64,000 nucleotides of DNA from a virus. The stretch lies in the IMG/VR virus record IMGVR_UViG_3300042460_000692, positions 1 to 64,000 of that record; one strand, 5' to 3'. This document shows positions 9,095 to 55,952 of this stretch, one piece after another; within the stretch, counting starts at the first letter, position 1; each line of letters starts with the position of its first letter. Under the pieces are notes generated by a model that saw only the letters and a program-made list of their open reading frames with translations, searched no databases and had not been told where the DNA came from. The position numbers and the translations under genes were made by a program.

Positions 9095-9535
9095 ATGAAT
9101 TGGATAGAGTATTTTTTACAGATTGCTGAGGTGGTAAAACTCAAATCTAAGGACCAATCTACACAGATAGGTGCCGTTGTAGTCGGTGAGGGTAATAACG
9201 TCCTTTCTACGGGTTATAATTCATTCCCAAGGGGTTTAGACGATTCATTACAAGAACGTCAGGAAAGACCCGAAAAATACTTCTGGATGGAACATGCCGA
9301 ACGTAATGCAATTTATAATGCGGCATTAGAAGGTGTATCGTTGAAAAACTCAACAATCTACTTAACATCGGGATTACCTTGTATGGATTGTGCCAGAGGA
9401 ATTGTTAATTCCGGTATAAAGACGGTATATTGTAAGGAAGTCTGTACTACTAAAAATAAAGAAAAGTGGGATGAATCCCAAAGTAAGGCTAAACAACTTT
9501 TAAATGAGTGTGGGGTTAATCTTATTTATTATTGA
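9095..9535 (+). CDS. cd: Deoxycytidylate (dCMP) deaminase
   Basis: Converts dCMP to dUMP, feeding dTTP synthesis for phage replication. The 146 residues have the zinc-dependent deaminase signature: HAE (H67, catalytic E69) and PCMDC (C96, C99). An N-terminal substrate region SKDQSTQIGAVVVGEGNNV leads into YNSFPRG, typical of ComEB/dCMP deaminases. T4 Cd is longer (about 190). It is in a two-gene operon with the SAP-like gene. The 3' end overlaps the convergent flavoprotein gene by 7 bp. dUTPase, NrdA and NrdB elsewhere in the window belong to the same nucleotide pathway. Confidence 0.92.
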   Translation: MNWIEYFLQIAEVVKLKSKDQSTQIGAVVVGEGNNVLSTGYNSFPRGLDDSLQERQERPEKYFWMEHAERNAIYNAALEGVSLKNSTIYLTSGLPCMDCARGIVNSGIKTVYCKEVCTTKNKEKWDESQSKAKQLLNECGVNLIYY

Positions 9536-10302
9536 GAATCAGGTATTTTAGTATCCTTTATAAATTTTTTGTAAGAATCTTTATATGATTTTTGACTTTC
9601 ATCGTTAATATCTTTAGTATACTGCCAGTTCCAATATATATCATCGTTTGGTTTGAAACCATAAAATGAATGAACTTGTTTTTGTAAATCAACAACGTTA
9701 CTTCCATTCCAATTATGTCCAGTACAAATGTATCCAGATTCGATATCTTTTACTATGTTAGACTCATTATGTACCGTATGTCTATTTTCAACCCAATTAA
9801 GTCTTTCAATTAGATTTTGATAATACATATTTGTTTGTCCCCACCTTATTGAACTAAAAAATATAACCGAATCTGATTCAAATAGTTCTTTGGATATTTT
9901 CCAAAGTTCATCTGATTTGTTATTGATACTCGCCCAACATCTGTGATGACCTGAAGGATTTTTATCCTTGTCTTCAAGTTTGGATTTTAATACTCCACAT
10001 GAATCTCCGTCTTTTCTTGATACGTTACCTTCACATGGAAATATCTTAAGTTCAGGTACGTCTATTAATGTTGACTTATCACCCAATTCATCATTAAGAT
10101 ACATTGCAATCATTTTAGATTTTGGTATATCAATATTATTTTTGTCCCAATTATGTCTATTAGAACAACTTAATAGTAAAACTTTTTTCTTATTTTTAAG
10201 AACATCCAATGTTTTCTTTAAAGATTTCCAAGCATCAGATTGTACCATCTCTTCCGAAATCATCATTTCTCTAATCCTTTGTATGTTCTCTTGTAAGTTC
10301 AT
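9529..10302 (-). CDS. Flavodoxin-fold FMN-reductase-like protein with phage N-terminal tag
   Basis: Likely NAD(P)H-dependent FMN reductase/flavodoxin-fold protein. From about residue 40: KKVLLLSCSNRHNW (first strand and phosphate loop), KSKMIAMYLND (helix), TLIDVPELKIFPCEGN, then SVIFFSSIRWGQTNMYYQNLIERLNW, cited as SVIFFSSIRWGQTN, which resembles the flavin-binding face of that family. The first 18 residues, MNLQENIQRIREMMISEE, are not part of the fold. They resemble terminal peptides on three other proteins of this phage and include ISE, a possible gp21 site. The substrate is unknown. The stop overlaps that of dCMP deaminase. It is the last gene of the long reverse block. Confidence 0.75.
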   Translation of the reverse strand: MNLQENIQRIREMMISEEMVQSDAWKSLKKTLDVLKNKKKVLLLSCSNRHNWDKNNIDIPKSKMIAMYLNDELGDKSTLIDVPELKIFPCEGNVSRKDGDSCGVLKSKLEDKDKNPSGHHRCWASINNKSDELWKISKELFESDSVIFFSSIRWGQTNMYYQNLIERLNWVENRHTVHNESNIVKDIESGYICTGHNWNGSNVVDLQKQVHSFYGFKPNDDIYWNWQYTKDINDESQKSYKDSYKKFIKDTKIPDSQ

Positions 10303-10309
10303 TAAAATT

Positions 10310-10585
10310 TTATATTTTATCTACGGCACCTGTGAATTTATGACATTTTTCAGATACACCACCTTTATCGTGGTCAGTAATAGATAATTTCACATTATCG
10401 TAATGAACGATTATATCAGGATGATGATTTTGTTTATCTGCGATTTTCATAACTGAATTAACAAATGGTATAACTTCTTTGTAGTTTTTGAAGTGATATG
10501 TTTTGGTAAGTTTATTATTACCCTCTTTCCAATCACTTTTATTTATAATCGTTCTTTTCTGTTCCTCGGTTATAATGTATTTCAT
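10310..10585 (-). CDS. Pterin-4a-carbinolamine dehydratase-like protein
   Basis: The family dehydrates 4a-hydroxytetrahydropterin during pterin cofactor recycling; some members are also dimerisation cofactors. The 91 residues carry the full signature: HFKNYKEVIPFVNSVMKIAD, then the catalytic NHHPD (H54, H55), VHYDNVKLSITDHDKGG with the third catalytic His (H72), and a closing helix. Length and order fit a complete single-domain enzyme. The N-terminus MKYIITEEQKRTII is an added phage-style start (I-x-E-E) also seen in the next gene. No pterin-dependent hydroxylase is visible in the window, so the physiological substrate is unclear. It lies between the flavoprotein and a cleavable-looking virion protein. 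Confidence 0.85.
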   Translation of the reverse strand: MKYIITEEQKRTIINKSDWKEGNNKLTKTYHFKNYKEVIPFVNSVMKIADKQNHHPDIIVHYDNVKLSITDHDKGGVSEKCHKFTGAVDKI

Positions 10586-10596
10586 AAGTTAAAATT

Positions 10597-11478
10597 TTAC
10601 CAAGTACGACAAGCCCAATATCTTGGTTTCCAACGAGGACCTGGATTATCACAATTCATACGAGCTCTAAATGACTTACGTCTTGCGGGGTTATTCTTTT
10701 TGATAACCATTCGTTTACCTTTAGCGGATTTACCACCAAAACCGAAATTTACCTTAACAACCTTACCCTTGTCGTTCTTGACATACACTTTAAACTTTTT
10801 AATATCACCTTGCATGATTTTTCCAAGTTGAACTTTACGTCCTTGATATTCAGCCTCATTTAACATATTGGTCGACTCAAAATTTGTGTTTTGAACGGAA
10901 CCCGATTCATCTTCATAAATTAAAACTGGCGTATCTTCGTTATATTCAAAAAGTCTTTGAAATTGTTCTTCAGATATTTGAATAATTGTTCTTTTTTCTA
11001 CACCTTCAGATAATCTATCAAATTCTTTATATCTAAAAGGATTAGACATTCTTTCTGGTTGACTAAACAATCTTTTTTTTCTTGTAAACGCAAAACTTCT
11101 ACTTCTTTCATCAACATTTTGTTGTTCGTCAAATTTTGTCATTGTTGGTTTATTACCTTTTCCAATTTTAGGGTCCTTTCTTTCTGCACTTCTTTTTTGA
11201 GATGTCATCGCCTTCTTTTCCTTTTTATCATATGAAGAGGCAACTTTAGGAGTATCTTTTGACACTTTTTTTGATGGTCTACATTTTGGATATCCTTTCC
11301 TTCCTTTTTCACCATCAGCATCACTACGTCCACAAGGTGGATGTTTACCATTAACTTTTTTACTTACATCTACCCATTTTTCTTTAAACCACCTACCTAA
11401 ATCTTCTTGTAATACCTCACCATTATTGATGGATAATTTAATGTATTGTAGATCTTCTTCGTTTATGTGTATTTTCAT
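10597..11478 (-). CDS. Composite basic virion/head-associated protein
   Basis: 293 residues in three parts. (a) N-terminal MKIHINEEDLQYIKL then GEVLQED, with two (I/L)xE sites. (b) Residues about 26-100: GRWFKEKWVDVSKKVNGKHP, CGRSDADGEKGRKGYPKC and a Lys/Ser/Ala-rich tail. This resembles a Cys-containing basic domain common in phages and giant viruses (DUF5872-like, from memory). (c) C-terminal: KKFKVYVKNDKGKVVKVNFG, ARRKSFRARMNCDNPG and YWACRTW, a motif I know from structural or protease-linked proteins of T4-like marine phages. An internal copy of the start motif, IQISEEQFQRLFEYNED, lies near residue 165. The charge suggests DNA contact inside the head. Function is not established. Confidence 0.75.
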   Translation of the reverse strand: MKIHINEEDLQYIKLSINNGEVLQEDLGRWFKEKWVDVSKKVNGKHPPCGRSDADGEKGRKGYPKCRPSKKVSKDTPKVASSYDKKEKKAMTSQKRSAERKDPKIGKGNKPTMTKFDEQQNVDERSRSFAFTRKKRLFSQPERMSNPFRYKEFDRLSEGVEKRTIIQISEEQFQRLFEYNEDTPVLIYEDESGSVQNTNFESTNMLNEAEYQGRKVQLGKIMQGDIKKFKVYVKNDKGKVVKVNFGFGGKSAKGKRMVIKKNNPARRKSFRARMNCDNPGPRWKPRYWACRTW

Positions 11479-11481
11479 GAT

Positions 11482-11937
11482 TTACTTTTTACCGCTACAA
11501 TATGAACCCGAACATTTTTTTTTACCATCTAATCCTTTTATTTTACCTTTACAAACTTGTACAGCATAACCATTCGCATATGCCGATGGATAAACTTTAA
11601 ATTTAGATTTTGCAGCAGATAAACCTCTTGAACAAAGTTTATTACTCTTTTTTTCCGCTTCTGACAAATTCTTTTGTTCAAAGTAACCATCAATAAAGTT
11701 AGCCACTTCTTCAATATCATCTTTAGATGTAGTTATATGGTCACCCGCCCACGCGTGTTCACCCGTAACTAATTTTGGAAAATCAGATTGGTGTTTATAG
11801 GACAATATCTTTTCGATATCATTCTTAATTTGAACTAAGTTGGATAAAACCATGTAAGTTCCGTCTTCAGATATGTGTGATTCTTGTTCCTTTACCACTT
11901 TTTTTAAATGTTTCTTAATTAATTCAGTTATATTCAT
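11482..11937 (-). CDS. Small conserved phage protein with VYPSAYAN motif
   Basis: 151 residues. The N-terminus MNITELIKKHLKKVVKEQES continues into HISED, giving an ISE site. The middle (YMVLSNLVQIKNDIEKILSY, then EHAWAGDHITTSKDDIEEVANF) and the C-terminal Cys motif (LCSRGLSAAKSKFKVYPSAYAN, shown here as two overlapping parts: LCSRGLSAAKSKFK and VYPSAYANGYAVQVCKG) occur in many large-phage and giant-virus proteins of unknown role. Four cysteines cluster at the end. It lies 3 nt upstream of the composite protein gene and follows a late-type box, which fits a virion component. Confidence 0.75.
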   Translation of the reverse strand: MNITELIKKHLKKVVKEQESHISEDGTYMVLSNLVQIKNDIEKILSYKHQSDFPKLVTGEHAWAGDHITTSKDDIEEVANFIDGYFEQKNLSEAEKKSNKLCSRGLSAAKSKFKVYPSAYANGYAVQVCKGKIKGLDGKKKCSGSYCSGKK

Positions 11938-11940
11938 AAT

Positions 11941-11948
11941 AATAAATA
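11941..11948 (-). promoter_or_regulatory. Late-type box
   Basis: Reverse strand TATTTATT, 3 nt before the start codon of the gene ending at 11482. Confidence 0.5.
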
Positions 11949-11951
11949 GTT

Positions 11952-13325: not shown

Positions 13326-13335
13326 CTTCTTTATT

Positions 13336-13343
13336 AATAAATA
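13336..13343 (-). promoter_or_regulatory. Late-type box
   Basis: Reverse strand TATTTATT, 10 nt before the start codon at 13325. Confidence 0.45.
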
Positions 13344-13348
13344 TCAAA

Positions 13349-14908: not shown

Positions 14909-15105
14909 TTCTTAATTCTTTTTTCTATTTCATCGTTTATTTCATTGAACAATTCTTCAACACTATCAAGATGTCTTGTTAAATCAATGATTAATGTTTT
15001 TGTTTTTTCAAATTCATCATTCAATTCATTTATTGCAAGAAATAAATCTTTATTTGATTTATTTTTAACATCGCTAATAACTTCAATAATTTTTTCTTTA
15101 TCCAT
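14905..15105 (-). CDS. Small coiled-coil protein
   Basis: 66 residues, nearly all helical with heptad-like spacing of Leu/Ile (IIEVISDVKNKSNKDLFLAI, then DLTRHLDSVEELFNEINDEI). It overlaps the spike gene by 4 bp and starts 1 nt after the stop of the large 637-aa gene, so it is translationally linked to both. A baseplate chaperone or clamp is possible, but I recognise no family. Confidence 0.65.
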   Translation of the reverse strand: MDKEKIIEVISDVKNKSNKDLFLAINELNDEFEKTKTLIIDLTRHLDSVEELFNEINDEIEKRIKK

Positions 15106-15106
15106 A

Positions 15107-17400: not shown

Positions 17401-17403
17401 ACC

Positions 17404-17411
17404 AATAAATA
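17404..17411 (-). promoter_or_regulatory. Late-type box
   Basis: Reverse strand TATTTATT, 3 nt before the start codon at 17400, between the sigma-factor gene and the structural operon. Confidence 0.5.
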
Positions 17412-17414
17412 GGT

Positions 17415-18892: not shown

Positions 18893-18897
18893 ATTGA

Positions 18898-20245: not shown

Positions 20246-20820
20246 GGTTCTTGTATTTCAGTTAATTTAGTTATTTCTTTTTTATAAGTAAAGTGTCCAT
20301 TATATTTGGTATTAAATTTGATGGCAACTTTATCTTCTGGACATTCATCTAACACAAGTTTTTTATCTGTAATCCAAATATCACATTTGTTCCACAGCTC
20401 TTTAATGTTATCACTTTTGTCGAATTTTATGTTATTACCTAAAAATCCGTTTTTTGATAGGAAGAATAATGTTGCTGGTTTTGATTTACCTAATTCATCC
20501 AACCCAATTAATGTAAAATTGTGTTCTTGATTATCATAAATCATTTTATGTAAATCTGTAAATGTTGTTGAGTAACTTAATCCAGCATGTCCAAATATTT
20601 CAATTGGGTATTCCATAAATGTAAAAAACTCATACTCTTCCTTTGATTGGAATCTGTACGAGTTCATTAAATTATCGTTTTCTATTGGCTCAGTTACACC
20701 ATAGTCAAATGTATTATCTTCAATCACAACATCATCCACTAAAAATGATTCGTTGTAATGATATTCAAATTTTTGTATTGTGTTTCTTAAAACACCATCA
20801 ATACTAATGTATACTTCCAT
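20167..20820 (-). CDS. HAD-like protein, probably catalytically altered
   Basis: 217 residues. Starts MEVYISIDGVLRNT, the place and shape of HAD motif I (DxDGVL), but the nucleophile Asp is Ser here. Later parts fit a HAD core: HNFTLIGLDELGKSKPATLF (motif II-like region), FLSKNGFLGNNIKF, and LWNKCDIWITDKKLVLDECP (motif IV-like acidic residues). If right, it is a nucleotidase-like fold without the normal catalytic residue. Its last 79 bp overlap the 97-aa gene. The PhoH terminator lies just upstream, so it starts a new transcript. Confidence 0.6.
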   Translation of the reverse strand: MEVYISIDGVLRNTIQKFEYHYNESFLVDDVVIEDNTFDYGVTEPIENDNLMNSYRFQSKEEYEFFTFMEYPIEIFGHAGLSYSTTFTDLHKMIYDNQEHNFTLIGLDELGKSKPATLFFLSKNGFLGNNIKFDKSDNIKELWNKCDIWITDKKLVLDECPEDKVAIKFNTKYNGHFTYKKEITKLTEIQEPWLNYSEKTTTLISMESQTNVEQTKQ

Positions 20821-20856
20821 TGGGTAAATATACCATCAAATATGTTATAAGTAAAT

Positions 20857-20896
20857 AATAAACCCACACCATTATGATAAACGATGTGGGTTTATT
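20857..20896. terminator. Terminator after phoH
   Basis: A 12-bp perfect stem (20857-20868 with 20885-20896, core ACCCACA/TGTGGGT) with A- and T-rich flanks, 21 nt beyond the phoH stop on the reverse strand. It would work on both strands. Confidence 0.8.
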
Positions 20897-20916
20897 GTGC
20901 AAAATTACATTTATTG

Positions 20917-21645
20917 TTAATCGTATCTGTTAAGAATTTCAGATATAATTGGGTTTCTAACAATATCCTCCATTCCAAATTCAAAAACACCGATTCCTTT
21001 TACATCACCTAATCTTTTCTTCGCATCATATAAACCAGATTTAGTTTTATCTTTAAATTTATCTGATTGTTCTAAATCTCCTGATAGGAAAAATTTAGAA
21101 TTATAACCAATACGAGTTAGTAATAATTTTACTTGTGCGGGAGTTGCATTTTGAGCCTCTTCAAATACTAATATCGTATTATCAACATTCCATCCTCTCA
21201 TATATGCAAGTGCCGCAACTTCAATGTAACCTTCGTCTTTAAGTTGTTCTCTTGCCTCTTTACCTATAATTTTATTTAATAGATAATAAGACGGGTAAAT
21301 GTATGGGTCCAACTTTTCTTCTAAACCACCTGGTAATGAACCTAATTTTTCTTCTGCCTCAACTGCCGGTCTAACAATGATTATTTTCTCATATTTATTG
21401 GAATCGTCATGTAACAAATCTACTGCTCTTTTCATTGCGATATATGATTTACCAACACCTGCTGGCCCAAAACAAAGGGTAATTTGATTATCTCCCAATA
21501 TGTTCCAATATGTTTCTTGATTTTTAGTTAAGAACTTTTCTTTTGGTTTTTTTATGATTTGTCTAATTCTATCCTTATGTATGATTTTTCTATCTTCCAC
21601 TAATACAGGTGGTTGGGTTCTACTGGTTCTAGGTTTTACTGCCAA
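20917..21645 (-). CDS. phoH: PhoH-like ATPase, TTG start
   Basis: P-loop NTPase of the PhoH family, frequent in marine and T4-like phages; its role in infection is unsettled. 242 residues with Walker A FGPAGVGKS (59-67), Walker B ILVFEEAQNA, and the PhoH sequence LPGGLEEKLDPYIYPSYYLL plus RIGYNSKFFLSGDLEQSD. The first ATG in frame lies after Walker A, so translation must begin at a non-ATG codon; TTG at 21645 (TTG GCA GTA) is the best candidate. A late-type box lies 30 nt upstream. The strong terminator follows. Confidence 0.9.
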   Translation of the reverse strand: MAVKPRTSRTQPPVLVEDRKIIHKDRIRQIIKKPKEKFLTKNQETYWNILGDNQITLCFGPAGVGKSYIAMKRAVDLLHDDSNKYEKIIIVRPAVEAEEKLGSLPGGLEEKLDPYIYPSYYLLNKIIGKEAREQLKDEGYIEVAALAYMRGWNVDNTILVFEEAQNATPAQVKLLLTRIGYNSKFFLSGDLEQSDKFKDKTKSGLYDAKKRLGDVKGIGVFEFGMEDIVRNPIISEILNRYD

Positions 21646-21675
21646 AATATATGTTTTTAATTGTTCTTTATTTTT

Positions 21676-21683
21676 AATAAATA
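21676..21683 (-). promoter_or_regulatory. Late-type box before phoH
   Basis: Reverse strand TATTTATT, 30 nt before the proposed TTG start of phoH. Confidence 0.4.
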
Positions 21684-21686
21684 TCT

Positions 21687-22286
21687 CTATTTACCTGTAC
21701 TTCCGAAACCACCACCACCCCTTTCGGTATTGGATAGTTCGTCACTTTCAAAGATTGTTACTTTAGGAAAAGGAATAATTATCATTTGAGCACCCCTTTC
21801 ACCTACCTTATATTTAATAGAATCTAATCCGTTTGTTTTTACAAAAGTAGCTTGTATTTCACCCCTATAACCACTATCTATAACCCCAACAGAGTTTGAC
21901 AATAGTAACTCTTGATTACGAATAGATGAACGAGGAAACACTAAACCGACGTATCCTTTTGGTATTTCAAACGCAAGTCCAAAACCATACGATACACTAA
22001 AGGTAGTATTTTCAATTTCTCTTGTTATTGTTAAATCCATTCCCGCATCACCATCTTTTGAGTATGATGGTATCACTGCGCTCTCATGTAGTTTTTTTAC
22101 CTTTACAGGAATTTCAAATGAAGATGGATTTGGTACAATTTTATCTTTTGATACATCGTCCATTAAATTACCTAAAACTTTGTTTATTTGGGTAAAAAAT
22201 TCATCGTCAACTTCATCATCTGAACTTAAGTCAGATTCAAATTCTTTTAATTTTTTTAAATATTCTTCAAGACTATCTTTATCCAT
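21687..22286 (-). CDS. dut: dUTPase
   Basis: Hydrolyses dUTP to dUMP and pyrophosphate, working with dCMP deaminase and ribonucleotide reductase. 199 residues. Trimeric dUTPase motifs in order: DGDAGMDL (1), PRSSI (2), NSVGVIDSGYRGEI (3), GERGAQMIIIP (4), RGGGGFGSTGK (5, glycine-rich flap that closes over the nucleotide). The first 55 residues are an extra acidic helical extension (KEFESDLSSDDEVDDEFF) not found in the minimal enzyme. Overlaps the next small gene by 8 bp. Confidence 0.93.
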   Translation of the reverse strand: MDKDSLEEYLKKLKEFESDLSSDDEVDDEFFTQINKVLGNLMDDVSKDKIVPNPSSFEIPVKVKKLHESAVIPSYSKDGDAGMDLTITREIENTTFSVSYGFGLAFEIPKGYVGLVFPRSSIRNQELLLSNSVGVIDSGYRGEIQATFVKTNGLDSIKYKVGERGAQMIIIPFPKVTIFESDELSNTERGGGGFGSTGK

Positions 22287-24655: not shown

Positions 24656-25501
24656 TTAATAAAACATTAAACGTTTAATTCTTTTTAAACTTTCCTGTAG
24701 ATTTTTTCCTTCTACATCTTCTTCAGGGTTAACTTCTGGTTTCTTTTCTGTTTCTGGTTGAGGTAATTCCTTTTCTACTTCTTTTTTAAACCTTTCTCTC
24801 GTACCTTGACCAGGCTTTATATTGCCGCCAATTTCTTTTTGTTTGTTAATCCAATCGGTCTGTTTAGTTTTATATAATTCTTTTTGTTTAACTTCATAAT
24901 CCTGATTATCACCGCCTTGTGGTAGTTCACTTGGTTTTTCCTCAGGTTTTGGTTGAGGTAATTCTTCGGGTTTAACAGGTTCTGTTGGAGTGACTTCGGT
25001 TGGTTTATCGGAAACCTTACTAACGGGAGGTTTTGTTGGTTCAGGTTTAGTAACCGTTGGTGATGGTTTTTCCATTTTTTTAGTATCCGAAGTTGTACCC
25101 CAATTTGTTGTGACATATGTTGTTGTCATTGAATTATCGGAACCTTCTTTATACTCTGGTCTCTTTCCGTTAAAAACTTCATCAGTAATTTCAACATTAC
25201 TCATTCTACCAATAATAAAAGTTCTCCACCCGTGTTTCGCAAATCCTTTTTTAGAAACGGAAGGAGGTTGTACCCAAGCTCTAACAATTAAATTACCCTT
25301 TTTAGAAAGACCCAAAGCAACCGCCTCAGCCTTTACTCTGTAACCATTTTTTACACTATCTTTTTTAGGTTTTTGAGGACCCGAATAGTAAAATGTAATC
25401 ATATTCCTATTTTTGATTGCATCAACTATAGGTTTGGTTTTTGTTGTCTTTAATATGTTTTGTTCTTCAATTACATTGAAGAATATTTTATTTATGTTCA
25501 T
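24656..25501 (-). CDS. WYL-like domain protein with Pro-rich linker and terminal tag
   Basis: 281 residues. Residues about 25-120 look like a WYL-type beta domain: VDAIKNRNMITFYYSGPQ, GYRVKAEAVALGLSKKGNL, VRAWVQPP, GWRTFIIGRMSNVEITDEVF. WYL domains bind nucleic acid or nucleotide ligands; a phage virion version is known to me only by pattern. A Pro/Glu/Lys-rich linker follows (about 150-260). The C-terminus NLQESLKRIKRLMFY matches the N-terminal LQENIQRIREMM of the flavoprotein and the C-terminus of the 165-aa protein nearby. The N-terminus includes VIEEQ. A packaged accessory protein is inferred. Confidence 0.72.
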   Translation of the reverse strand: MNINKIFFNVIEEQNILKTTKTKPIVDAIKNRNMITFYYSGPQKPKKDSVKNGYRVKAEAVALGLSKKGNLIVRAWVQPPSVSKKGFAKHGWRTFIIGRMSNVEITDEVFNGKRPEYKEGSDNSMTTTYVTTNWGTTSDTKKMEKPSPTVTKPEPTKPPVSKVSDKPTEVTPTEPVKPEELPQPKPEEKPSELPQGGDNQDYEVKQKELYKTKQTDWINKQKEIGGNIKPGQGTRERFKKEVEKELPQPETEKKPEVNPEEDVEGKNLQESLKRIKRLMFY

Positions 25502-25504
25502 AAA

Positions 25505-25882
25505 TTAAAAATCGGGGTATCCTTTTGATGGATTGTATTTGTTTCTTGCAACAACATCAGTTCTTGATTTAATATCTGTCAATGAACCAACTTTACCATC
25601 TAATTCACCCTTACCCTTTTCGTCACCATCAGATAGTGCATCTTTGTTTATTGAAGAGTAATTATTTTCTTTATTAAATCTGTTTCTCCCAACATTATCA
25701 ATTCTATTTTGGACATCAACAGATGACCCTATTGAATTATCTAGTTCACCCTTACCTTTAACGTCACCATCAGATAACGCATTTTTATTTGTGGAAGAAT
25801 AGAATTTTTGTTCGTTATAGATGTTCGGTCCTAAAATTTCAGTTCTAAACTTCTGTGCTAAGATTTCTAATTGTGTTGCCAT
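25505..25882 (-). CDS. Protein with two direct repeats
   Basis: 125 residues, mostly two copies of a 42-45 residue repeat: SSTNKNALSDGDVKGKGELD...NRIDNVGRNRFN and SSINKDALSDGDEKGKGELD...SRTDVVARNKYN. Each copy has ALSDGD-x-KGKGELD as its invariant core. No cysteine, no obvious fold. It starts 1 nt after the preceding stop, in the reverse structural block. The repeated acidic/Gly pattern could bind along a lattice. Function unknown. Confidence 0.7.
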   Translation of the reverse strand: MATQLEILAQKFRTEILGPNIYNEQKFYSSTNKNALSDGDVKGKGELDNSIGSSVDVQNRIDNVGRNRFNKENNYSSINKDALSDGDEKGKGELDGKVGSLTDIKSRTDVVARNKYNPSKGYPDF

Positions 25883-25883
25883 A

Positions 25884-26381
25884 TTAATAACGTATTAATT
25901 TTTTAAATTTTTCAATTTGTTCAAATAAACCCAAAGAAACAATTGGACTTATTGTGTTTTTATGTGAATTACTTTTCATCATATTCAATGACGGAAATGT
26001 ACTTGATTTTTTTGAGTGTGTTTTAAGGTGACTATTTGAACGCTCACCACTAATTGCACCTATTTCATCTGCTCTTTTTCTTGAATCTTTTTTATTACTC
26101 ACCATATCTCTTTCACCTTGTAAATGCGTTTTTGACCAATTATTCATTAGGTCCCCACCCGCTAATTCAAATTTCAATTTATCTTTAACTTTATCCATAT
26201 ATGTTAATTCGTGGATAATTTTCTTTAATTGACCATACTTTACTGTTCCGTCTTTAAGTAACTTTTCTGCCCTTTCTTTCCCGTCAGCGTGTTGCCCATT
26301 TAAATGCATAACAGTTTGACTGATTTTATGCAGTATGTTTTGTGGAATGTTAAATACCCTATCTTTTAAATCGTTATTCAT
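25884..26381 (-). CDS. Conserved phage protein with C-terminal tag
   Basis: 165 residues. The first half (DRVFNIPQNILHKISQTVMH, GKERAEKLLKDGTVKYGQLK) is a helical module I recall from other large phages, role unknown. The middle is Ser/His/Lys-rich and probably disordered. The C-terminus LFEQIEKFKKLIRY closely parallels LQESLKRIKRLMFY at the end of the WYL-like protein two genes on. Overlaps the following 250-aa gene by 8 bp. Confidence 0.7.
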   Translation of the reverse strand: MNNDLKDRVFNIPQNILHKISQTVMHLNGQHADGKERAEKLLKDGTVKYGQLKKIIHELTYMDKVKDKLKFELAGGDLMNNWSKTHLQGERDMVSNKKDSRKRADEIGAISGERSNSHLKTHSKKSSTFPSLNMMKSNSHKNTISPIVSLGLFEQIEKFKKLIRY

Positions 26382-27126
26382 TGTCTTTTAAATGTTTCAT
26401 AATATCATTAATTGATAAATTATGACTTTTTAAACTATTTTTAAGAGATTTTAATTGTTTTGCAACAATTGGATTTATTTCCTTTTCTTCCATTTGGTCA
26501 CCATCGTTAGAAACAATCTCACTATCTTTAGATTTCTTAGCTAAGATACTTTCAATGTATTCCTCCATGAACTTTTTAGGATTTTCAACTAATCTAACTT
26601 TATCGGTATTTTTTAGTTTTTCATCATATCCCATTTTAGCCAACCTTTCTTCGGCCTCATCATCTGTTAAACCTAAATCATCCTCAAAATGGTCCTTTGC
26701 GTCATCATAATCAGCATCTTGACCTAAAGTATCATCATACCCTAAAGATTTACTCATATCGGATTCTGCCCAATATCTTCTATACCCAAAACCAAGACTA
26801 GGTGATAGTGATGTTTGACCACTAGCACTTTTAACAACTTCATCAGTTGTTTTATTTTGTGTTATTCCTTTTGTGTTAAAATTTGTTGGTTTCTTACCTC
26901 TAGCAACGTTACCATTTTTATCTACAATCTCGTCTACTTCTTTTTCTCCCGCTTTATCTGGTATTTCGTCATATTTTGTTTTATCTGAAAATTCTTTGGC
27001 CATTTTACCCCATTTCGACTTTTCTTTCTTTGATGCACCCTTTTCGTTCTCCTTAGCAAAAAAGTATCTTTGTTGCGCTTTTGATGCAAATTTCTCTTCG
27101 ATTACCTGTTTTATAAAATTATTCAT
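26374..27126 (-). CDS. DUF3008-like N-terminus plus acidic domain
   Basis: 250 residues. After MNNFIKQVIEEKFA comes SKAQQRYFFAKENEKGASKK then KSKWGKMAKEFSDKT, the pattern of a small DUF3008-like module (SKAQQR...W..MA.EFS) widespread in phages. The middle is acidic (about residues 125-165) and the C-terminus helical. VIEE near the start fits the IxE-type sites found on other accessory proteins here. First gene of the reverse block, with a late-type box 15 nt upstream that is shared with the divergent fibre gene. Confidence 0.7.
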   Translation of the reverse strand: MNNFIKQVIEEKFASKAQQRYFFAKENEKGASKKEKSKWGKMAKEFSDKTKYDEIPDKAGEKEVDEIVDKNGNVARGKKPTNFNTKGITQNKTTDEVVKSASGQTSLSPSLGFGYRRYWAESDMSKSLGYDDTLGQDADYDDAKDHFEDDLGLTDDEAEERLAKMGYDEKLKNTDKVRLVENPKKFMEEYIESILAKKSKDSEIVSNDGDQMEEKEINPIVAKQLKSLKNSLKSHNLSINDIMKHLKDNE

Positions 27127-27149: not shown

Positions 27150-27166
27150 TCAAATCTTATGAAAGA

Positions 27167-27174
27167 TATTTATA
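27167..27174 (+). promoter_or_regulatory. Late-type box that sets the fibre gene start
   Basis: TATTTATA, 5 nt before the ATG at 27180. It lies inside the seven-codon extension that would result from starting at 27159, which argues for 27180 as the start. Confidence 0.5.
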
Positions 27175-27179
27175 GAAAC

Positions 27180-29087
27180 ATGAATAGACAGAATATTTTA
27201 AATTTTTATGGGTCAAGATTGGAATTAAAATTAGATTCTTCCGAATTATATGATTTTGAGTTGAGTAAAACCCAAGGTGATTATGATGCAGATGCGTTAG
27301 ATTTGAGTACACTCATAGTCTACGATTCATTAAAAATAGATGATAACTTAAATAATTTAGATTGCACAAAAGATAGAATCACCCTTGAGGAGGATAATAT
27401 AAGTGACTTATTAAGTTCTTATACCTATTCTGGATTATCAATGACTTTACCGTATAGTAATTTTGTATCATATTTTGGGACAGGGTTTACACATACTATT
27501 TTAGATAGCAATAGATTTAAATTCACACTTATTAGTGGAAGAACTCATTATTTTAAAATTTTAGGATATAATCAAACGGGATATACATCTAACATTTTAA
27601 CGGGTTATACAGAATCAGCCCTTATTTCGGGGTTTACTTCAGACATCTACAAAAGTAGGAGAAATATTATAAATTTTAATGCATGCTCGGCTCAATCCCC
27701 AAAAACAAATGTAAAACCATGGGCATTTGATTTTAATGAGGGATTAGGTACTGATTATTGTACTCCTAAATTAAAAAGAAGACCTGAAAATGGGTGGACT
27801 TTAGATTTCATATTTAATAGAAATTCTTTACCGTGGTCATCGGGAAGTGTTTTTTATTATTTAGGTGTTAGAGGGGACGATGATTTAACCGACTACGCCG
27901 ATAATAACCTATCTTTTCAATTTACATCAGATGCTAGAATTAAGTGGATATCAAGACATTATTCTGGTGCATGTGTTAATGATTTGGCATATGGAGAATC
28001 TTTTTATATTTCAAGTGGACAAACTCCAACATTGTGTACTACGGGGTTAACTAATAATTTTAATGTTACAATTGTTTTTGATAGATATAAACATTATACG
28101 GATTGTGATCTTGAAAATGACGGGGGACAGAATGATTTAATTCCAGAATTTATTGTGAGTCCGTATCAAAACATAGAAGTGACTGCAGTAACATCAACAC
28201 AATTAGCTCTTTTAAATAATTCTGAAGTTTTAAATAAGAAATGGGCGAATGAAAGACAAAGGAGGTTGGGGACTTTGAAGATATACTTAAACGGTAGACC
28301 AATATATAAGTTAGAAAATTGGGAGGAAATTATACCTTCAAAGAGAGGAACTCAACCGTTTATTCAATCTTGGGGTGGTGGAACTGGATTAATGAGTGGA
28401 ATTCATTCAGGTGTTTCATGTTTTAATATCAAATCAATTAAATATTTTGAGGAGCCATTAAATTTCCCAAGAGTTAGACATCACTATCTAACTGAGATAA
28501 AACCAAATTTTGAAATCGTTGAGTGTGGGGTTAAGTGTGTGGATAGTTTATCTGCACTACCTACTCCAACACCTACGGGGTCATCCACTCCAACCCCAAC
28601 ACCTACAAATACTAGTACTCCATTACCACCAACATCAACACCTACAAATACTAGTACTCCATTACCACCAACATCAACACCTATACCAACTAGTACATCT
28701 ACTTCAACCCCAACACCCACTCCTACAAGTAGTCCAACTAGTACACCGGTACCAACATATAAAAGAGTATATGCGGCATATAATATTAACAGCTCCCCTC
28801 AAGATGCTTATTGTGGAAACACAACAATAGAATATATGAATAATAGTGAATTATATTTCTTGGGAAGTGGTACACTACCTAACCTTGGTGATTATGTATA
28901 TGAAAAATCAATTGGATCATCAACATATACTTTGGGTTGGCCATCTGGTGGAAATTATATTTATTTATCCGATACTTTAGGTGTTCCGGCGATAAGGTCA
29001 TTTAAATTCACCAGTACATATAGTCCTCCGGTTAATGGTTATGTTTCTGGACAAATAAATGAAATATATATTTGCCCAACACCGTAG
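27180..29087 (+). CDS. Tail-fibre/adhesin-like protein with Pro/Thr linker
   Basis: 635 residues from ATG 27180 (642 from 27159). The large N-terminal region is beta-rich, with a concanavalin/LamG-like stretch (GWTLDFIFNRNSLPWSSG, SVFYYLGVRGDDD, LGTLKIYLNGRPIYKLENWE) of the kind found in phage receptor-binding and cell-surface proteins. Residues about 460-525 are a Pro/Thr/Ser linker with two perfect copies of a 13-residue repeat (PTNTSTPLPPTST). The last 110 residues (KRVYAAYNINSSPQDAYCGN onward) form a small Cys-containing beta domain. An adhesin with a stiff glycosylatable linker is a reasonable inference; three glycosyltransferases are nearby. Confidence 0.75.
   Translation: MNRQNILNFYGSRLELKLDSSELYDFELSKTQGDYDADALDLSTLIVYDSLKIDDNLNNLDCTKDRITLEEDNISDLLSSYTYSGLSMTLPYSNFVSYFGTGFTHTILDSNRFKFTLISGRTHYFKILGYNQTGYTSNILTGYTESALISGFTSDIYKSRRNIINFNACSAQSPKTNVKPWAFDFNEGLGTDYCTPKLKRRPENGWTLDFIFNRNSLPWSSGSVFYYLGVRGDDDLTDYADNNLSFQFTSDARIKWISRHYSGACVNDLAYGESFYISSGQTPTLCTTGLTNNFNVTIVFDRYKHYTDCDLENDGGQNDLIPEFIVSPYQNIEVTAVTSTQLALLNNSEVLNKKWANERQRRLGTLKIYLNGRPIYKLENWEEIIPSKRGTQPFIQSWGGGTGLMSGIHSGVSCFNIKSIKYFEEPLNFPRVRHHYLTEIKPNFEIVECGVKCVDSLSALPTPTPTGSSTPTPTPTNTSTPLPPTSTPTNTSTPLPPTSTPIPTSTSTSTPTPTPTSSPTSTPVPTYKRVYAAYNINSSPQDAYCGNTTIEYMNNSELYFLGSGTLPNLGDYVYEKSIGSSTYTLGWPSGGNYIYLSDTLGVPAIRSFKFTSTYSPPVNGYVSGQINEIYICPTP
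28602..28679 (+). repeat. Two perfect 39-bp tandem copies in the fibre linker
   Basis: Unit beginning CCTACAAATACTAGTACT repeated exactly at 28602-28640 and 28641-28679, encoding PTNTSTPLPPTST twice. Flanking sequence (28555-28755) is degenerate P/T/S code almost without G on this strand. Confidence 0.9.
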
Positions 29088-42313: not shown

Positions 42314-42316
42314 TGT

Positions 42317-44218: not shown

Positions 44219-44230
44219 TCTAAATAAATC

Positions 44231-44238: not shown

Positions 44239-44253
44239 ATATAAAAGAAAATA

Positions 44254-48975: not shown

Positions 48976-48977
48976 TC

Positions 48978-49301
48978 ATGAGTAGAGAATATTTTAATAG
49001 GTACCAATTTTATATAAATGATGGAGAATTTAGAGTTGTTCCAGGAATCGAAATACCAATAAAAGGAACAGACAAGTACCAACAATATAAAAAAGGTAAA
49101 GATAGATTAGATAAACTATCACAAGAATATTACAATTCACCATTATATGGTTGGTTGATTTTATTAGCAAACCCCGCTGCAGGTAGTTTAGAATTTGAAA
49201 TACCTAACAATTATTATATAAGGATACCATATCCGCTAATCGACTCTTTACAAGATTATAAAAGTGGTGTAGAATTGTATAACTTATATTATGGGGAATA
49301 A
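48978..49301 (+). CDS. 53: gp53-like baseplate wedge protein
   Basis: 107 residues. YKKGKDRLDKLSQEYYNSPL, YGWLILLANPAAG and FEIPNNYYIRIPYPL fit the LysM-like pattern of T4 gp53 (RLD...YY...W.LI..AN......I....IRIP). T4 gp53 is 196 aa, so this is a short version. It starts 2 nt after the giant baseplate gene and overlaps the next one by 11 bp. Confidence 0.65.
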   Translation: MSREYFNRYQFYINDGEFRVVPGIEIPIKGTDKYQQYKKGKDRLDKLSQEYYNSPLYGWLILLANPAAGSLEFEIPNNYYIRIPYPLIDSLQDYKSGVELYNLYYGE

Positions 49302-52300: not shown

Positions 52301-55065
52301 AACCTATTGGTGATAATGGTTTGTATTTCACAAGTTTTATTGACAACTCAAAAATAGTATCTTCAGACAAATATTTTACATTATTACCTTCAGTTGGGGG
52401 GTCTAAGAATGGTTTTACTAATGGACTTACCGCTAGTGGTAACGAACAGAAAAATTTTAAAATTTTATGGTGTTATGATAATGAATCAGTAACGGATTAT
52501 TATGACGGTAAAGAATTCTTTGATTATGATGAATATAATAAATCATATGATGTTGGAACTTTGTTTTTTAATATGGTCGATTATTCTGGTCCATTTTTCA
52601 CCGATTTAAACAAAGATGAAGATGCAAAGTATTCATTAGTAACATCTGAAAAAAGAAAGATATACGATTTAATTGCAACATTTAGTCCTCAAATTTTAGA
52701 TAAATTTGAAGAATATTTTTTAGATTTTGCAACAGAAAAATTAGAAGAAGAAATACCATATAAAGTATTTCCAGACTATAACGTAACAGGAATTGTTAGC
52801 GGTGAAACTAAAACAATTGAAAGTCATTCTGTAAAATATGATAAATTTCAAGATTTATTAAAGGCTTTAGTTACCATAGATAAAGACGATAATAATGACA
52901 ACACAGATGTTAATGCAATTATAACAACATTAAAAGAAAAACAATTAAAAAAATTAGAATCAATAACTCAACAAATATTAGGAACTGATAATTTATTAAA
53001 AGTAACGATTGGTAACCCAAAAGAAATTGTACCAAATGTATGGAATGGTTTTGCTCAAATAGATGACGTAAATAGGTTTTCATATAATGAGTACAATTCA
53101 TCACAATATAGTTCTAATAAAATGTATATTGATTTATATGTGGGAGGAGAACCATCAACAGATTGTTATAAAAATTTCTTCGTAACTAATAATGTAGAAT
53201 TAAGTGAAGAAAATGTATTAATATTTAGACCATTGATTCTAATATTTGCTGGATGGGTCGAAAGTAAAGGATTAGCATACACCCCAACAAAGGCAGATTT
53301 CCAAGATTATATAAAAACAAAAATATTGAGAGGACCTGAATTAAGACTTGGACAATATTTTACACAATTATTACCTAAGTTATCAACTTTAACAGTTAAA
53401 GATAGTAAAAATGAGGTTACGATTGTAAATGGATATAATGACATTCCATTAAAATTAGAATTATATAATTACTTTAAATCGTTTAATGATAAATGGGTTG
53501 CAGGAAATTCATTAGGACAAAGGACTTTAATGGAAGAATTTTTATTCTTAGATAAAGCAAATAAAGACATAGGAGACCAAGCGTACCTTTCACTTGAAAA
53601 ATTATTACCATTAGAAGATACAAAAAATAGTAAGGCGAATCTTTATAGTGTAATATCAATGTTAATACAAGGAACGGGATTTGATATGAGGGGATTACCA
53701 GCATACGTTAATTTCTACGGAACAAACAACTCAACTAAATCTAGAATAACACCATCTAAGAAAATTGCTGAAAATTTATTTGGAACATTTTTAGATGTGG
53801 ACTATCAAGATTCTTCACCTAAAATTCTTATTCAATATACGGGACCAACATCTAAACATCTAGAGTTGGCTGACATTAACGAAAAATATAAATTTAAAAA
53901 CGATAGTGGTAACTTATTTAGTGGAGTAGGTAGTCCATTAGTTATAACAACACCACAGGTGTTTAGTCAAGGAGATTATGCAAAATCTAATAAAGTGGTT
54001 GCGTTTGAAGTAAGTGTTGGTGACCAAAACCAAGGTATTTTTAAGAGTGTACAACTTGACCAATCATCAATAAGGAACACCACAGAATCATTTAATGTTA
54101 TTGAAAATTTGGGTCGTTCTGAAAGTGGTGCGGCTGCAAATCAAATAGACATAAGTTTATTTGACATATACAGACAGGCATCATATACTTGTGACGTAAC
54201 ATGTATGGGTAATGTTATGATTCAACCAACAATGTATTTTTATTTAAAAAATGTGCCTATGTTTAGGGGGTCATATTGGATAACTGAAGTTTCACATAGT
54301 ATTAGGAATAATAATATAATAACCACATTTAAAGGTACAAGAATTCCTTATGCATCATTACCTGACCCTAAGGATTCATTCCTATCAAGTTATAGGGTTT
54401 TATTTGACAAGATAACTAGAGCGGCAATTGCTAAAACTAAAGAACAAGAAAATTCCACAACAACAGGGTCAACAAAGAATGAACAAACACACACAACAAG
54501 TGATGGTAAAACATTCTTATCAGATATGGGAGATAGTAAACAAGCTATTAACGGAGAAAAAATATTATTAGAACAAGGGGTTACACAATATGGTGTACCA
54601 TATAATGGATATAACGAAGAAAAGTACATTCAAAAAGTTAGTTTCAATGGAAAAGATTATTTAAGGGCTCAAGTTATTACTATGGGTGGACCAAATTATG
54701 AGATAAAAGAAACAATATCTATGAATATTATTTCGAGACAAACGGAACATACAATAGAACCCAACCCAATTACTTGGAAAGATTTATCAAGTTCAACAAG
54801 ATACTTCTATTCGACAAAATTTGATTTTGATGTAGCTAAACCAAATTTAATTATCAAAGGAACCACTAAGTTTTATAACCCAAAGGATGTAAAAACCCCA
54901 ATAACCGTACCACCAGTTGGTTCGGGACAAATTAACGTTAATAACATAACAGGACCAATTAATGCAGGACCAACAGGGGTTAAATCTGGATTGGCACTAT
55001 CTAAACAATTAATGAAAGATTTAAAAGTACAAGATGGGGATGTTGTATATTTTGAAATCATTTAA
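49291..55065 (+). CDS. Giant baseplate hub-like protein
   Basis: 1924 residues, the largest gene here. The N-terminal part (GIDSININIKGANFIPQVNI, NFIDVRGKTLFESPQNSPYG, FHLPWPIFYLTIKGYYGKAI) is beta-rich and not assignable by me. Near residues 1600-1690, ASYTCDVTCMGNVMIQPTMY, FYLKNVPMFRGSYWITEVSH, SIRNNNIITTFKGTRIPYAS resemble the last domain of gp27/GPD-type hub proteins. The C-terminal 230 residues include a Thr/Gly linker and end SKQLMKDLKVQDGDVVYFEII. Probably the central hub with added domains. No lysozyme motif seen. Overlaps the gp53-like gene by 11 bp. Confidence 0.65.
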   Translation: MGNNKISQSENILVKVDVNNLVFVDPNSVQNGDQVEPRGIKQENLVMFVNLEADLIPRSVLTASGDSTSKGTLSSIAKGTLSFTQNKGKNGKDFDTAWTEEFVNVKDGVDNDGNKYNYQNDSTAQSFGIDSININIKGANFIPQVNINFIDVRGKTLFESPQNSPYGAFFHLPWPIFYLTIKGYYGKAIKYRLHLTKFSSKYNESNGNFEIATTFVGSTYAFLNDIPLDGILNAPYMYMVESDPDLPAKFNEKKGTKEKQIKKSSKGYVMLKSVYDEYKQKGLIDKNFPTKTLREVIVIARSLDKILEKEIFGGLVDMKLFVGVKDFEKKLTEFESAVKNWSKRFVSAETVEVDGAIYNRMVDRTITDIKIKGSTVNGTLESIITNYPLDLKQTKIFTETFLKQSANDFKKETFSYSNKIKPIDSYVKLIASGYVVSVQGVLKDIYDMQQLFVQQRNKLQDLVERKMNEIVKDKDKGIGFDPTIRNIFAVILANAEVYIRLLKEVHSKSFEVSTIRRQILKGFSDESKGNDSIYPWPEVKKQSSNKQKVIAYPGDPELQQKLRSYDKFLWPEIDFLENYQAVGTKRQDSLTGNEGSASKIDFVFDNSNTDGDLHKIATLFQLAIGTPYINKSISSIIYEIHERGRYATLSDDFSLNTINELADREFDNIQKMFGEDPDVVGMLKTMTNITTLTENLLSFSPFDRYPYFEDKLPTTPYLKTIENTPFSIETSYSGNKNFEDTGVFNKLKENLNDFTYESETYRLNIYPFNSDSYLNYLGEESFSLADLNLKQIFQVNTKEGLISAPALPTYWTDKYSNLFDEKIKIGPSSSASILNTPYFHKQLESDFGKQSYGKYAGSAYLLLNSLPFIDLEDEFFGKTRLSTVFREISASHYVPYHLIIKWGSIYHRYKKKILENKDILSGFLSGTTTTAISGKTFFDDGNNLTFNIGQNVNYTSQNVIGLHPLYDSVFHQIVNGYSHFLFSTGDTISFDTAFTNKTINVVQEPIGDNGLYFTSFIDNSKIVSSDKYFTLLPSVGGSKNGFTNGLTASGNEQKNFKILWCYDNESVTDYYDGKEFFDYDEYNKSYDVGTLFFNMVDYSGPFFTDLNKDEDAKYSLVTSEKRKIYDLIATFSPQILDKFEEYFLDFATEKLEEEIPYKVFPDYNVTGIVSGETKTIESHSVKYDKFQDLLKALVTIDKDDNNDNTDVNAIITTLKEKQLKKLESITQQILGTDNLLKVTIGNPKEIVPNVWNGFAQIDDVNRFSYNEYNSSQYSSNKMYIDLYVGGEPSTDCYKNFFVTNNVELSEENVLIFRPLILIFAGWVESKGLAYTPTKADFQDYIKTKILRGPELRLGQYFTQLLPKLSTLTVKDSKNEVTIVNGYNDIPLKLELYNYFKSFNDKWVAGNSLGQRTLMEEFLFLDKANKDIGDQAYLSLEKLLPLEDTKNSKANLYSVISMLIQGTGFDMRGLPAYVNFYGTNNSTKSRITPSKKIAENLFGTFLDVDYQDSSPKILIQYTGPTSKHLELADINEKYKFKNDSGNLFSGVGSPLVITTPQVFSQGDYAKSNKVVAFEVSVGDQNQGIFKSVQLDQSSIRNTTESFNVIENLGRSESGAAANQIDISLFDIYRQASYTCDVTCMGNVMIQPTMYFYLKNVPMFRGSYWITEVSHSIRNNNIITTFKGTRIPYASLPDPKDSFLSSYRVLFDKITRAAIAKTKEQENSTTTGSTKNEQTHTTSDGKTFLSDMGDSKQAINGEKILLEQGVTQYGVPYNGYNEEKYIQKVSFNGKDYLRAQVITMGGPNYEIKETISMNIISRQTEHTIEPNPITWKDLSSSTRYFYSTKFDFDVAKPNLIIKGTTKFYNPKDVKTPITVPPVGSGQINVNNITGPINAGPTGVKSGLALSKQLMKDLKVQDGDVVYFEII

Positions 55066-55085
55066 GAATATTAACAAATTTGGGA

Positions 55086-55093
55086 TATTTATA
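55086..55093 (+). promoter_or_regulatory. Late-type box
   Basis: TATTTATA, 16 nt before the start codon at 55110. Confidence 0.5.
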
Positions 55094-55109
55094 CATATAA
55101 CAGAAAATT

Positions 55110-55313
55110 ATGGAAAATAATAAATTAAACAACACCATGGATCAGTTCTTAAGTCCTAAACAGACTAAAAGAACATCAAATGATGAAATGGAAAGAGAAG
55201 AGTGTGATATGGTAACGGGAGAATGTTACACAATCAGAGAAAAAGACGGAATTGTTGAAAGAATAAATAAAAAATACGTTACAAACGACGGTAGACAATT
55301 ATTACAAGATTAA
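55110..55313 (+). CDS. Unknown 67-aa protein
   Basis: 67 residues, charged: MENNKLNNTMDQFLSPKQTK, MEREECDMVTGECYTIREKD, GIVERINKKYVTNDGRQLLQ. Two cysteines in the middle. No family recognised. It follows the hub gene with a late-type box and starts the short run of small late genes. Confidence 0.65.
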   Translation: MENNKLNNTMDQFLSPKQTKRTSNDEMEREECDMVTGECYTIREKDGIVERINKKYVTNDGRQLLQD

Positions 55314-55316
55314 GCC

Positions 55317-55952
55317 ATGTTAGAGAAAAAACTACAAGAAGAATTAAATCGTTATAAAGCCATAAATAAATATGGTAAGACGATGATAATGGAACAAGAC
55401 GCACCTCCTGCCGATCCAGCATTGGACCCAGCTTTAGGAGCACCTGCAGATATGGCACCAGATCCAAACGCATTACCTACTGCTGACGCACCACCTATGG
55501 ACGCAGCACCCGCTCCTGAAATGGACAATACAGAAGAAGTAGATATTACCGATTTGGTTAACATGGTTAAAAGTGTTAAGAAAGACCAAGAAGATAGTAC
55601 GGGATCAAACAACGAGGTGATAACTAAGATGGACGACGTGTTTACAAAGCTAACTGATTTAGAACAAAAATTAGCTCAAATGGACCAAGTAATGAGTAAG
55701 ATTGACCAATTAGGTGCAACCGTTGAGGCCAACAAACCAAAAACTGAAGTTGAAAGACTTGAAATGCGTTCTTTGGATTCATATCCATTTAATGAGAAAC
55801 CACAAGAATTCTTCGCACACAAACAAGGTGAGATGAGAGCAAGTGGTAAGAATGAATACATTTTAACCAAAGACGAGGTTGAAAATTATCCAGTTGAAAA
55901 TATAAAAACATCATTTAACCCAAGCGAAGAGGAAGATGAATATAAGTTCTAA
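55317..55952 (+). CDS. Ala/Pro/Asp-rich protein with LQE-type N-terminal tag
   Basis: 211 residues. The N-terminus MLEKKLQEELNRYKAINKYG, then KTMIMEQ, matches the tag LQENIQRIREMMISEE of the flavoprotein in order and spacing (LQE-x-[IL]-x-R, then MI-x-E). Residues about 28-75 are a Pro/Ala/Asp low-complexity region with no codon bias gap. Then comes a coiled coil (KMDDVFTKLTDLEQKLAQMD, MSKIDQLGATVEANK) and a C-terminal charged part. A core or internal-protein role is inferred. Confidence 0.7.
   Translation: MLEKKLQEELNRYKAINKYGKTMIMEQDAPPADPALDPALGAPADMAPDPNALPTADAPPMDAAPAPEMDNTEEVDITDLVNMVKSVKKDQEDSTGSNNEVITKMDDVFTKLTDLEQKLAQMDQVMSKIDQLGATVEANKPKTEVERLEMRSLDSYPFNEKPQEFFAHKQGEMRASGKNEYILTKDEVENYPVENIKTSFNPSEEEDEYKF

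Follow-up and report, generated by a model that had tools for sequence, protein, structure and literature searches.

The stretch analysed here (the window) comprises bases 1-64,000 of a 76.9-kb viral contig, IMG/VR record IMGVR_UViG_3300042460_000692, and carries a T4-like head block made up of a portal-like gene, a prohead protease, a scaffold-like gene and a major capsid protein (Table 1). This work concerns a short terminal peptide of the pattern LQE-x-[IL]-x-[RK]-x-[KR], which a sequence-only reading of the window had assigned to five otherwise unrelated proteins and had equated with the capsid-targeting propeptide of T4 internal proteins. The five are a 257-amino-acid (aa) "flavoprotein", a 211-aa protein, a 281-aa "WYL-like" protein, a 165-aa protein and the scaffold. 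The names "flavoprotein" and "WYL-like" are by-eye labels, since neither protein has a Pfam, NCBIfam or PHROG match, nor does the "flavoprotein" match any of the PDB sequences; a predicted structure of the latter was discarded (predicted local distance difference test score, pLDDT, of 52; fold search without a significant match). The capsid protein of the window matches 2,502 annotated phage records, each at less than 60% identity, the first among the matches listed being Microcystis phage Mel-JY01 (39% identity over 61% of the query) and the next the Flavobacterium phages immuto (40.5%). Close viral contigs were collected by capsid search, which gave at least 600 stretches, and the best 80 loci were used for the counts referred to below as those of the window clade.

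All five quoted ends are present at the named genes, MNLQENIQRIREMMISEE and MLEKKLQEELNRYKAINKYGKTMIMEQ being the N-termini of the "flavoprotein" and the 211-aa protein, and NPQFRRMKDLMGKIK the C-terminus of the scaffold; the remaining two are given in Table 1. A tag profile was compiled from other contigs, using 42 distinct 13-mers at N-termini, with "flavoprotein" orthologues among its sources, and the entire 76.9-kb record, in all 24,150 13-mers, was scored with it, 20 shuffles serving as the null. The "flavoprotein" N-terminus ranked first (39.9) and the "WYL-like" C-terminus second (22.1), against shuffle maxima of 3.4-12.2. Two unrelated stretches took the third and fourth ranks (10.0 and 9.0), ahead of the 211-aa end (rank 5, 8.7, a score exceeded by four of the shuffle maxima), the scaffold end (rank 7, 5.3) and the 165-aa C-terminus (rank 9, 5.0). 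Only the "flavoprotein" and "WYL-like" ends are thus significant alone, because the other three score within the shuffled maxima.

Table 1. Elements and genes of the window; a slash marks a predicted cut
Feature	Gene	Element	Strand	Sequence or end	Basis or remark
Class A leader of 257-aa "flavoprotein"	9529-10302	10252..10302	-	MNLQENIQRIREMMISE	Predicted cut after ISE; profile score 39.9
C-terminal tag of 281-aa "WYL-like" protein	24656-25501	24659..24703	-	NLQESLKRIKRLMFY	Profile score 22.1
C-terminal tag of 165-aa protein	25884-26381	25887..25928	-	LFEQIEKFKKLIRY	Family conservation; not significant alone
C-terminal tail of scaffold	5752-6927	6877..6924	+	ENPQFRRMKDLMGKIK	Motif in 77/78 loci
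N-terminus of 211-aa protein	55317-55952	55317..55394	+	MLEKKLQEELNRYKAINKYGKTMIME	Family-specific; membership in the shared tag lacks support
Portal-like gene	1673-3484				Identity by eye
Prohead protease, Peptidase_S77 (gp21 family)	4983..5666		+		Family matches
C-terminal tail of prohead protease		5613..5663	+	DDRMSKLMGKLDTFLSK	Arg and LM spaced as in scaffold tail
Scaffold, acidic	5752-6927		+		Identity from place and composition
Major capsid protein	6959-8689		+
Predicted propeptide of major capsid protein	6959-8689	6959..7138	+	Ends LINE/AAV	Motif in 80/80 loci
Class B-type N-terminus of pterin dehydratase	10310-10585	10535..10585	-	MKYIITEEQ...
Leader-like N-terminus of 293-aa DUF5872 protein	10597-11478	11404..11478	-	MKIHINEEDLQYI...VLQE	By resemblance
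Leader of 151-aa protein	11482-11937	11887..11937	-	MNITELIKKHLKKVVKE	Homologues with other leader classes
Leader-like N-terminus of 281-aa "WYL-like" protein	24656-25501	25463..25501	-	MNINKIFFNVIEE	Putative; similar N-termini in homologues
Leader-like N-terminus of 250-aa protein	26374-27126	27094..27126	-	MNNFIKQVIEE	Putative

Conservation in homologues, which the sequence-only reading had named as a check, held for four of these ends: 13 of the first 18 residues of the "flavoprotein" leader are invariant in 10 aligned sequences; the "WYL-like" family has a clear C-terminal tag in 9 of the 12 members listed (looser in record G005, degenerate in G006, broken in G004); LFE...KL[IM] closes 12 of the 13 listed members of the 165-aa family in window-clade records; and the scaffold tail R[MIV][KR][DE][LM]M occurs in 77 of the 78 loci, out of 80, that have a readable gene before the capsid gene. 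The support for the 165-aa and scaffold ends therefore comes from conservation and not from the profile score. The 211-aa N-terminus is conserved in its homologues as well, but a motif search with it matched its own family alone, so that its kinship with the shared tag finds no support. Its candidacy as a separate shared leader class was likewise rejected, as it is found on its own family only. The assembly of record G004 is apparently poor (617 open reading frames, ORFs, in 251 kb, with many genes split or frameshifted), and its copies of the 281-aa and 250-aa genes are broken.

The N-terminal form of the tag, termed here the class A leader (MNLQExIxRIKxMMGLLxE), recurs at the N-termini of unrelated protein families across contigs, a search of related genomes having been proposed as a check. 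The pattern QExIxRIKxMM was found in 95 stretches when the viral collection (2.9 million contigs) was scanned, and these represent 82 distinct ORFs when each set of identical proteins is counted once. The pattern is N-terminal, with a Met no more than 14 residues before it, in 79 of these, and in 78 the Met stands 3-4 residues ahead, as in MNLQE; one further ORF is N-terminal if a Val at the start place represents GTG, which brings the count to 80/82, and the remaining two have a stop codon within the pattern. In 84,980 prokaryote genomes, the same pattern was found in 12 stretches and in none of them N-terminally (six internal in long ORFs, six in stub ORFs). A looser motif gave 40 matches in 13 whole window-clade records, two near-identical pairs included, and 36 of the matches are terminal (within 25 residues of the N-terminus or 15 of the C-terminus). 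The corresponding scan for the immuto-type sequence MQKLAGIIxE yielded at least 120 stretches and 113 distinct ORFs; among the ORFs listed, 92 carry it near an N-terminal start, five at the C-terminus (four of them scaffold-like), four elsewhere ("mid") and two at a contig edge. Internal or near-C-terminal immuto-type tags were seen in L385, L387, L416, L481 and other LAGII loci, and also in three of the four "mid" ORFs.

The position of the leader relative to a candidate protease site is equally regular. The cleavage rule of the T4 prohead protease gp21 is L/I-X-E (PMC9026906, consulted in part), and the proposal that the N-terminal tag is followed by such a site was borne out: strict [IL]xE lies within 9 residues after the motif in 59 of 70 distinct proteins of class A, some of them homologous to one another, compared with 4-10 in seven control windows placed deeper in the same proteins. 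When [ILVMFA]xE is allowed, the counts become 64 and 7-15, respectively. A Peptidase_S77 (S77) match above the curated cut-off was obtained in 23 of 31 large tag-bearing records and in none of 14 control genomes. Where tag contigs were searched for both the capsid protein and S77, the protease was present in all 13 that have a capsid protein; the four contigs in which no capsid protein was found also had no S77 match, as expected of fragments. Capsid proteins were searched for on the contigs that hold 44 of the 120 LAGII stretches and 49 of the 95 RIKxMM stretches. The capsid protein of the window itself has LINE/A at residue 60, and T4 gp23 has FLTE/A (LTE/A) at the corresponding place.

Class A is one of several such leaders. 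In relatives of the window phage, accessory genes form runs in which consecutive genes start with one of a few sequences (for example G001, 124-140 kb; G002, 263-271 kb; G005, 1-12 kb), comprising, in addition to class A, classes B (MKIIITESQL), C (MKKIVRLTESELxxLVKKIxNE), D (FTITESExxEIRxxYNL) and E (MKFLEILEE, pattern MKxLxILxE). Two more were read from the immuto genome, F (MKKSQLRxIIKEEL) and G (FDLKKFLxENKLT). In 3,340 non-redundant proteins, the N-terminal matches and those elsewhere numbered 14 and 1 for class A, 44 and 12 for B, 3 and 0 for C, 2 and 0 for D, 9 and 0 for E, 3 and 0 for F, and 4 and 1 for G; shuffling left on average 1.3 N-terminal matches for class B, 0.4 for E and 0 for all others. 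A search of annotated phages with the short leaders (E up to 10) returned none for classes A and B, and only weak matches inside unrelated genes for class C (22 records); the immuto-type, G and F leaders were found there in the four immuto records only.

The proteins behind the leaders are diverse. On tag-bearing fragments, 554 ORFs have A, B, C or E leaders by regular expression, and they fall into 165 blast families (89 singletons), some of which were merged through the tag alone. A Pfam scan of 93 proteins (87 family representatives and 6 window proteins) detected 20 families, each in one member, including lysozyme, cell-wall hydrolase, sigma-70 regions, thioredoxins and ADP-ribosyltransferase; the matches to pterin dehydratase and DUF5872 are the window's own genes, several other matches are weak, and most of the leader proteins scanned have no Pfam domain. 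The sigma-70 regions found (Pfam, alignment A1 members) are regions 2 and 4, and a sigma factor carried in the virion would be notable.

The leaders are also swapped between bodies. After removal of the first 30 residues from 7,788 proteins, 770 body clusters were obtained, of which 20 show two or more leader classes by regular expression, some class calls in these mixed clusters being wrong or loose; about a dozen are convincing by eye. The LHDTSW family of eight members has six A leaders, one B and one C, and in all eight a Glu directly precedes GLHDT(S/Y)W, whichever leader is present. In the NYMFF family (16 members), B, C-like, immuto-A and Lys-rich leaders are found on one body. In other swap pairs, the start of homology differs from the predicted cut. 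A tagged 442-aa protein (L365:9508-10836) contains a second, internal copy of a class C leader, RLTESDLTRIVKLVIAESE.

The leader also has a link with the scaffold. The scaffold of Flavobacterium phage immuto ends in VSEQVSRWQKLAGIIK, and two other immuto proteins begin with MKKQILSEQF(K/R)RMQ(F/K)LAGIITE; the tail R[MFWI][QKR]x[LI]A[GNF] is present in all 77 loci read out of 80 in this clade. A profile of the immuto scaffold tail was run over the 715 proteins of three records with five shuffles, and its top eight matches were three scaffolds (two of them among the profile sources) and five N-terminal leaders, with scores of 20.4-31.7, all above the shuffled maxima (13.2-17.3); the ninth, a C-terminal GRMQYYAGIKK (18.8), is also above them. 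In the window clade, the RMKDLM-like scaffold tail (Table 1) is accompanied by RIKxMM leaders. An unselected scan that permitted A or M at the sixth place gave 30 N-terminal matches in the window clade and 8 in the immuto clade, from which leaders were picked by eye; the 12 window-clade leaders all have M and the five immuto-clade leaders all have A. The same pairing was found in the 33 tag contigs whose scaffold could be read: LAGII-type tags go with an immuto-like capsid protein in 18 and RIKxMM-type tags with a window-like one in 15, with no mixture seen; two of the 18 immuto-type scaffolds end in RMRELAFG. Related scaffold tails are those of Mel-JY01 (RMKKLAGIVK), RM378 (RIKRLAGL) and LR756508 (RMQKLADIS). 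Within the immuto clade, a matching of W versus M between leader and scaffold was mixed and was not used.

From the sequence, position and motif of the leaders, together with their swapping and their co-occurrence with the protease, we infer a course of docking, cleavage, packaging and ejection. The short amphipathic class A leader (MNLQExIxRIKxMM) would dock its cargo into the growing prohead core or inner shell; the activated prohead protease would then cut after [IL]xE and free the mature protein within the head, where it would stay until ejected along with the DNA. Class A would be one of several leader classes, several of them interchangeable on one body. Judged from sequence, the N-terminal tag is thus most likely a T4-type capsid-targeting propeptide, greatly expanded, with C-terminal versions that are not cleaved. 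The earlier equation with the T4 tag is upheld in this manner for the N-terminal versions, by the S77 protease, the LINE/A site of the capsid protein, the place of the tag at the start of unrelated proteins, the [IL]xE sites that mostly follow it and the swaps that can end at that Glu. It finds no support for the C-terminal versions as cleaved propeptides, since these run up to the stop codon and look more like the tails of the scaffold and the protease. Those of the 165-aa and 281-aa proteins may rather be variants of the docking helix, which would remain attached because there is no downstream site. In the Flavobacterium-phage clade, the leader plainly copies the phage's own scaffold tail, and the cargo would therefore enter posing as scaffold. 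A more far-reaching proposal, to which we give somewhat less than an even chance, is that of a modular loading code, in which removable copies of the scaffold tail or other leaders, each possibly with its own docking site in the prohead core, load the cargo, C-terminal copies stay on, leaders are swapped at the protease site, and all the proteins that a phage carries and probably injects can be listed from its genome.

Other explanations account for part of these observations. The leaders may hold assembly helpers or minor core proteins at the prohead, most of which would be lost on maturation and not carried into the host. In T4, the core proteins undergo cleavage and for the most part exit the head (PMC9026906, in the part consulted), and the genes with C-terminal tags (24656-27126) are conserved in the clade, as expected of core head genes; yet the leaders stand on variable accessory genes, some enzyme-like (lysozyme, thioredoxin, sigma-70 and ADP-ribosyltransferase, one member each), and their junctions leave an intact body after the cut, which makes this explanation an improbable one. 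Even less probable is a different address, such as the host membrane, a replication compartment or a host partner, with [IL]xE being incidental. Several leader classes could indeed mean several addresses, and the placement of the leader proteins in the head is here a deduction; against this stand the enrichment of [IL]xE just after the motif, the co-occurrence with S77, the scaffold-tail likeness in the immuto clade and the resemblance of class E to a tested T4 sequence. The resemblance within the window could, lastly, be a product of chance and orthology, in the form of a short Leu/Glu/Lys helix chosen by eye. Such an origin would suit the three quoted ends that score within shuffles and is the best account of the family-specific 211-aa example, yet it is contradicted for class A as a whole by the "flavoprotein" and "WYL-like" ends, which exceed all 20 shuffles, and by the sharing of class A among unrelated families, and we consider it extremely improbable.

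The reading of the leader as a packaging propeptide, in one clade a copy of the scaffold tail, is itself weakened by a number of observations. No S77 match was obtained in 8 of the 31 large tag records, perhaps fragments. The 12 class B matches elsewhere in proteins indicate that its regular expression is loose, and some class B members, such as the pterin dehydratase, may be native starts. In 10 of the 113 listed LAGII ORFs, the tag lies deep inside, more than 55 residues in, though near some Met. No virion proteome of such a phage was among the papers listed in a literature search. As for the likeness to the scaffold, the copy is strong only in the immuto clade, because the leaders of the window clade score below the shuffled maxima: the tail profile of that clade gives its best two cargo leaders 12.6 and 11.8, with shuffled maxima of 14.8-18.6, and the protease tails (13.2-16.1) do not exceed these maxima either. 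The scaffold core of the window scores immuto leaders (31 and 36) above its own leader (29). The match of leader and scaffold by clade is nearly one evolutionary contrast, that of two clades; of the 33 contigs compared, five have no tag row owing to the removal of identical proteins, the tag of G055 proved to be the scaffold itself, and internal positions occur among the immuto-type tags. The parts read of Mel-JY01, RM378 and LR756508 yielded no leader that resembles their scaffold tails, and the tails of the T4 and P-SSM7 scaffolds, considered as the same peptide, were rejected as not similar.

Further leader-like ends occur in the window (Table 1), of which the protease tail and the N-terminus of the 151-aa protein are to be counted with the quoted ones. 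That of the pterin dehydratase overlaps the native Pterin_4a start, the profile covering residues 6-80. Another leader-like segment, IIQISEEQFQRLF, lies in the interior of the 293-aa DUF5872 protein, which gives it the look of a fusion of two tagged proteins. The protease tail DDRMSKLMGKLDTF has the scaffold-like spacing of Arg and LM, as judged by eye in 76 homologous tails, and its profile score is within shuffles. A third type of C-terminally tagged protein, of about 500 aa, is present in the window-clade records G005 (179062-180603) and G006 (20491-21981), ending in RMKEMLMYNKKTQ and RMKDMLSYNEKTQ. Record G081 (contig of L293; 269 kb) combines two S77 matches and a window-type capsid protein with a second capsid-like place (36% identity), and may thus contain two head blocks or be a chimeric contig. 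Two proteins with long Thr/Pro/Ser-rich repeats are encoded at 27159-29087 of the window and at 76138-76911 of record G000.

Proteins carried by phages are usually known only from the proteomics of cultured phages. A leader code, if true, would predict the carried set of uncultivated phages and point to unknown proteins of takeover or counter-defence, with imitation of the scaffold as a suggested route of cargo entry. Flavobacterium phage immuto, with Flavobacterium sp. LMO8 as its host and leader proteins such as the products at 25470 and 111631 of MW353176, offers a cultured system at hand. A search of the literature found none of six leader strings in the searchable full texts, and no paper on such leader sets was among those listed, most subscription papers lying outside the texts searched.

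Leader-directed packaging as a principle has precedents in T4 and P1. The apparent novelties here are the scale, the interchangeability of the classes, the versions at C-termini and the copying of the scaffold. Short terminal helices that dock cargo inside an HK97-type shell are familiar from scaffold tails and from the cargo-loading peptides of encapsulins; unlike these, the leader described here lies ahead of a protease site, and the phage has a protease of its own. The capsid-targeting sequence (CTS) of T4 IPI-III and Alt is similarly a short peptide that starts otherwise unrelated proteins and that gp21 cuts after L/I-x-E, and it is the common part of internal proteins whose bodies diverge, as with the leaders here (PMC9026906 and PMC3012670, both consulted in part). 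Packaging of IPIII needs just its first 10 residues, gp22 is purified together with the internal proteins, and fusions with foreign proteins are also delivered (PMC9026906, in the same part). The phages studied here differ from T4 in having several interchangeable classes, many more cargo families and C-terminal versions, and one clade has a leader resembling the scaffold tail, whereas the tail of T4 gp22 is unlike the T4 CTS. IPII and IPIII of T4 start with MKTYQEFIAE, to which class E is similar and class A is not; since residue identity is not required across phages, the mismatch between class A and IPIII lowers the case for homology and not that for function. In phage P1, the N-terminal 30 residues of DarB suffice to carry a reporter into the head, and the same paper found no consensus for the Dar proteins (PMC9024508), in contrast to the strong consensus of the present leaders. 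In the giant phage SPN3US, too, propeptides stand at the N-termini of head and ejection proteins, and the protease has one at its C-terminus; the N-terminal ones measure 20-254 residues, and the portion of the text covered (PMC10052503) describes no targeting peptide shared among them.

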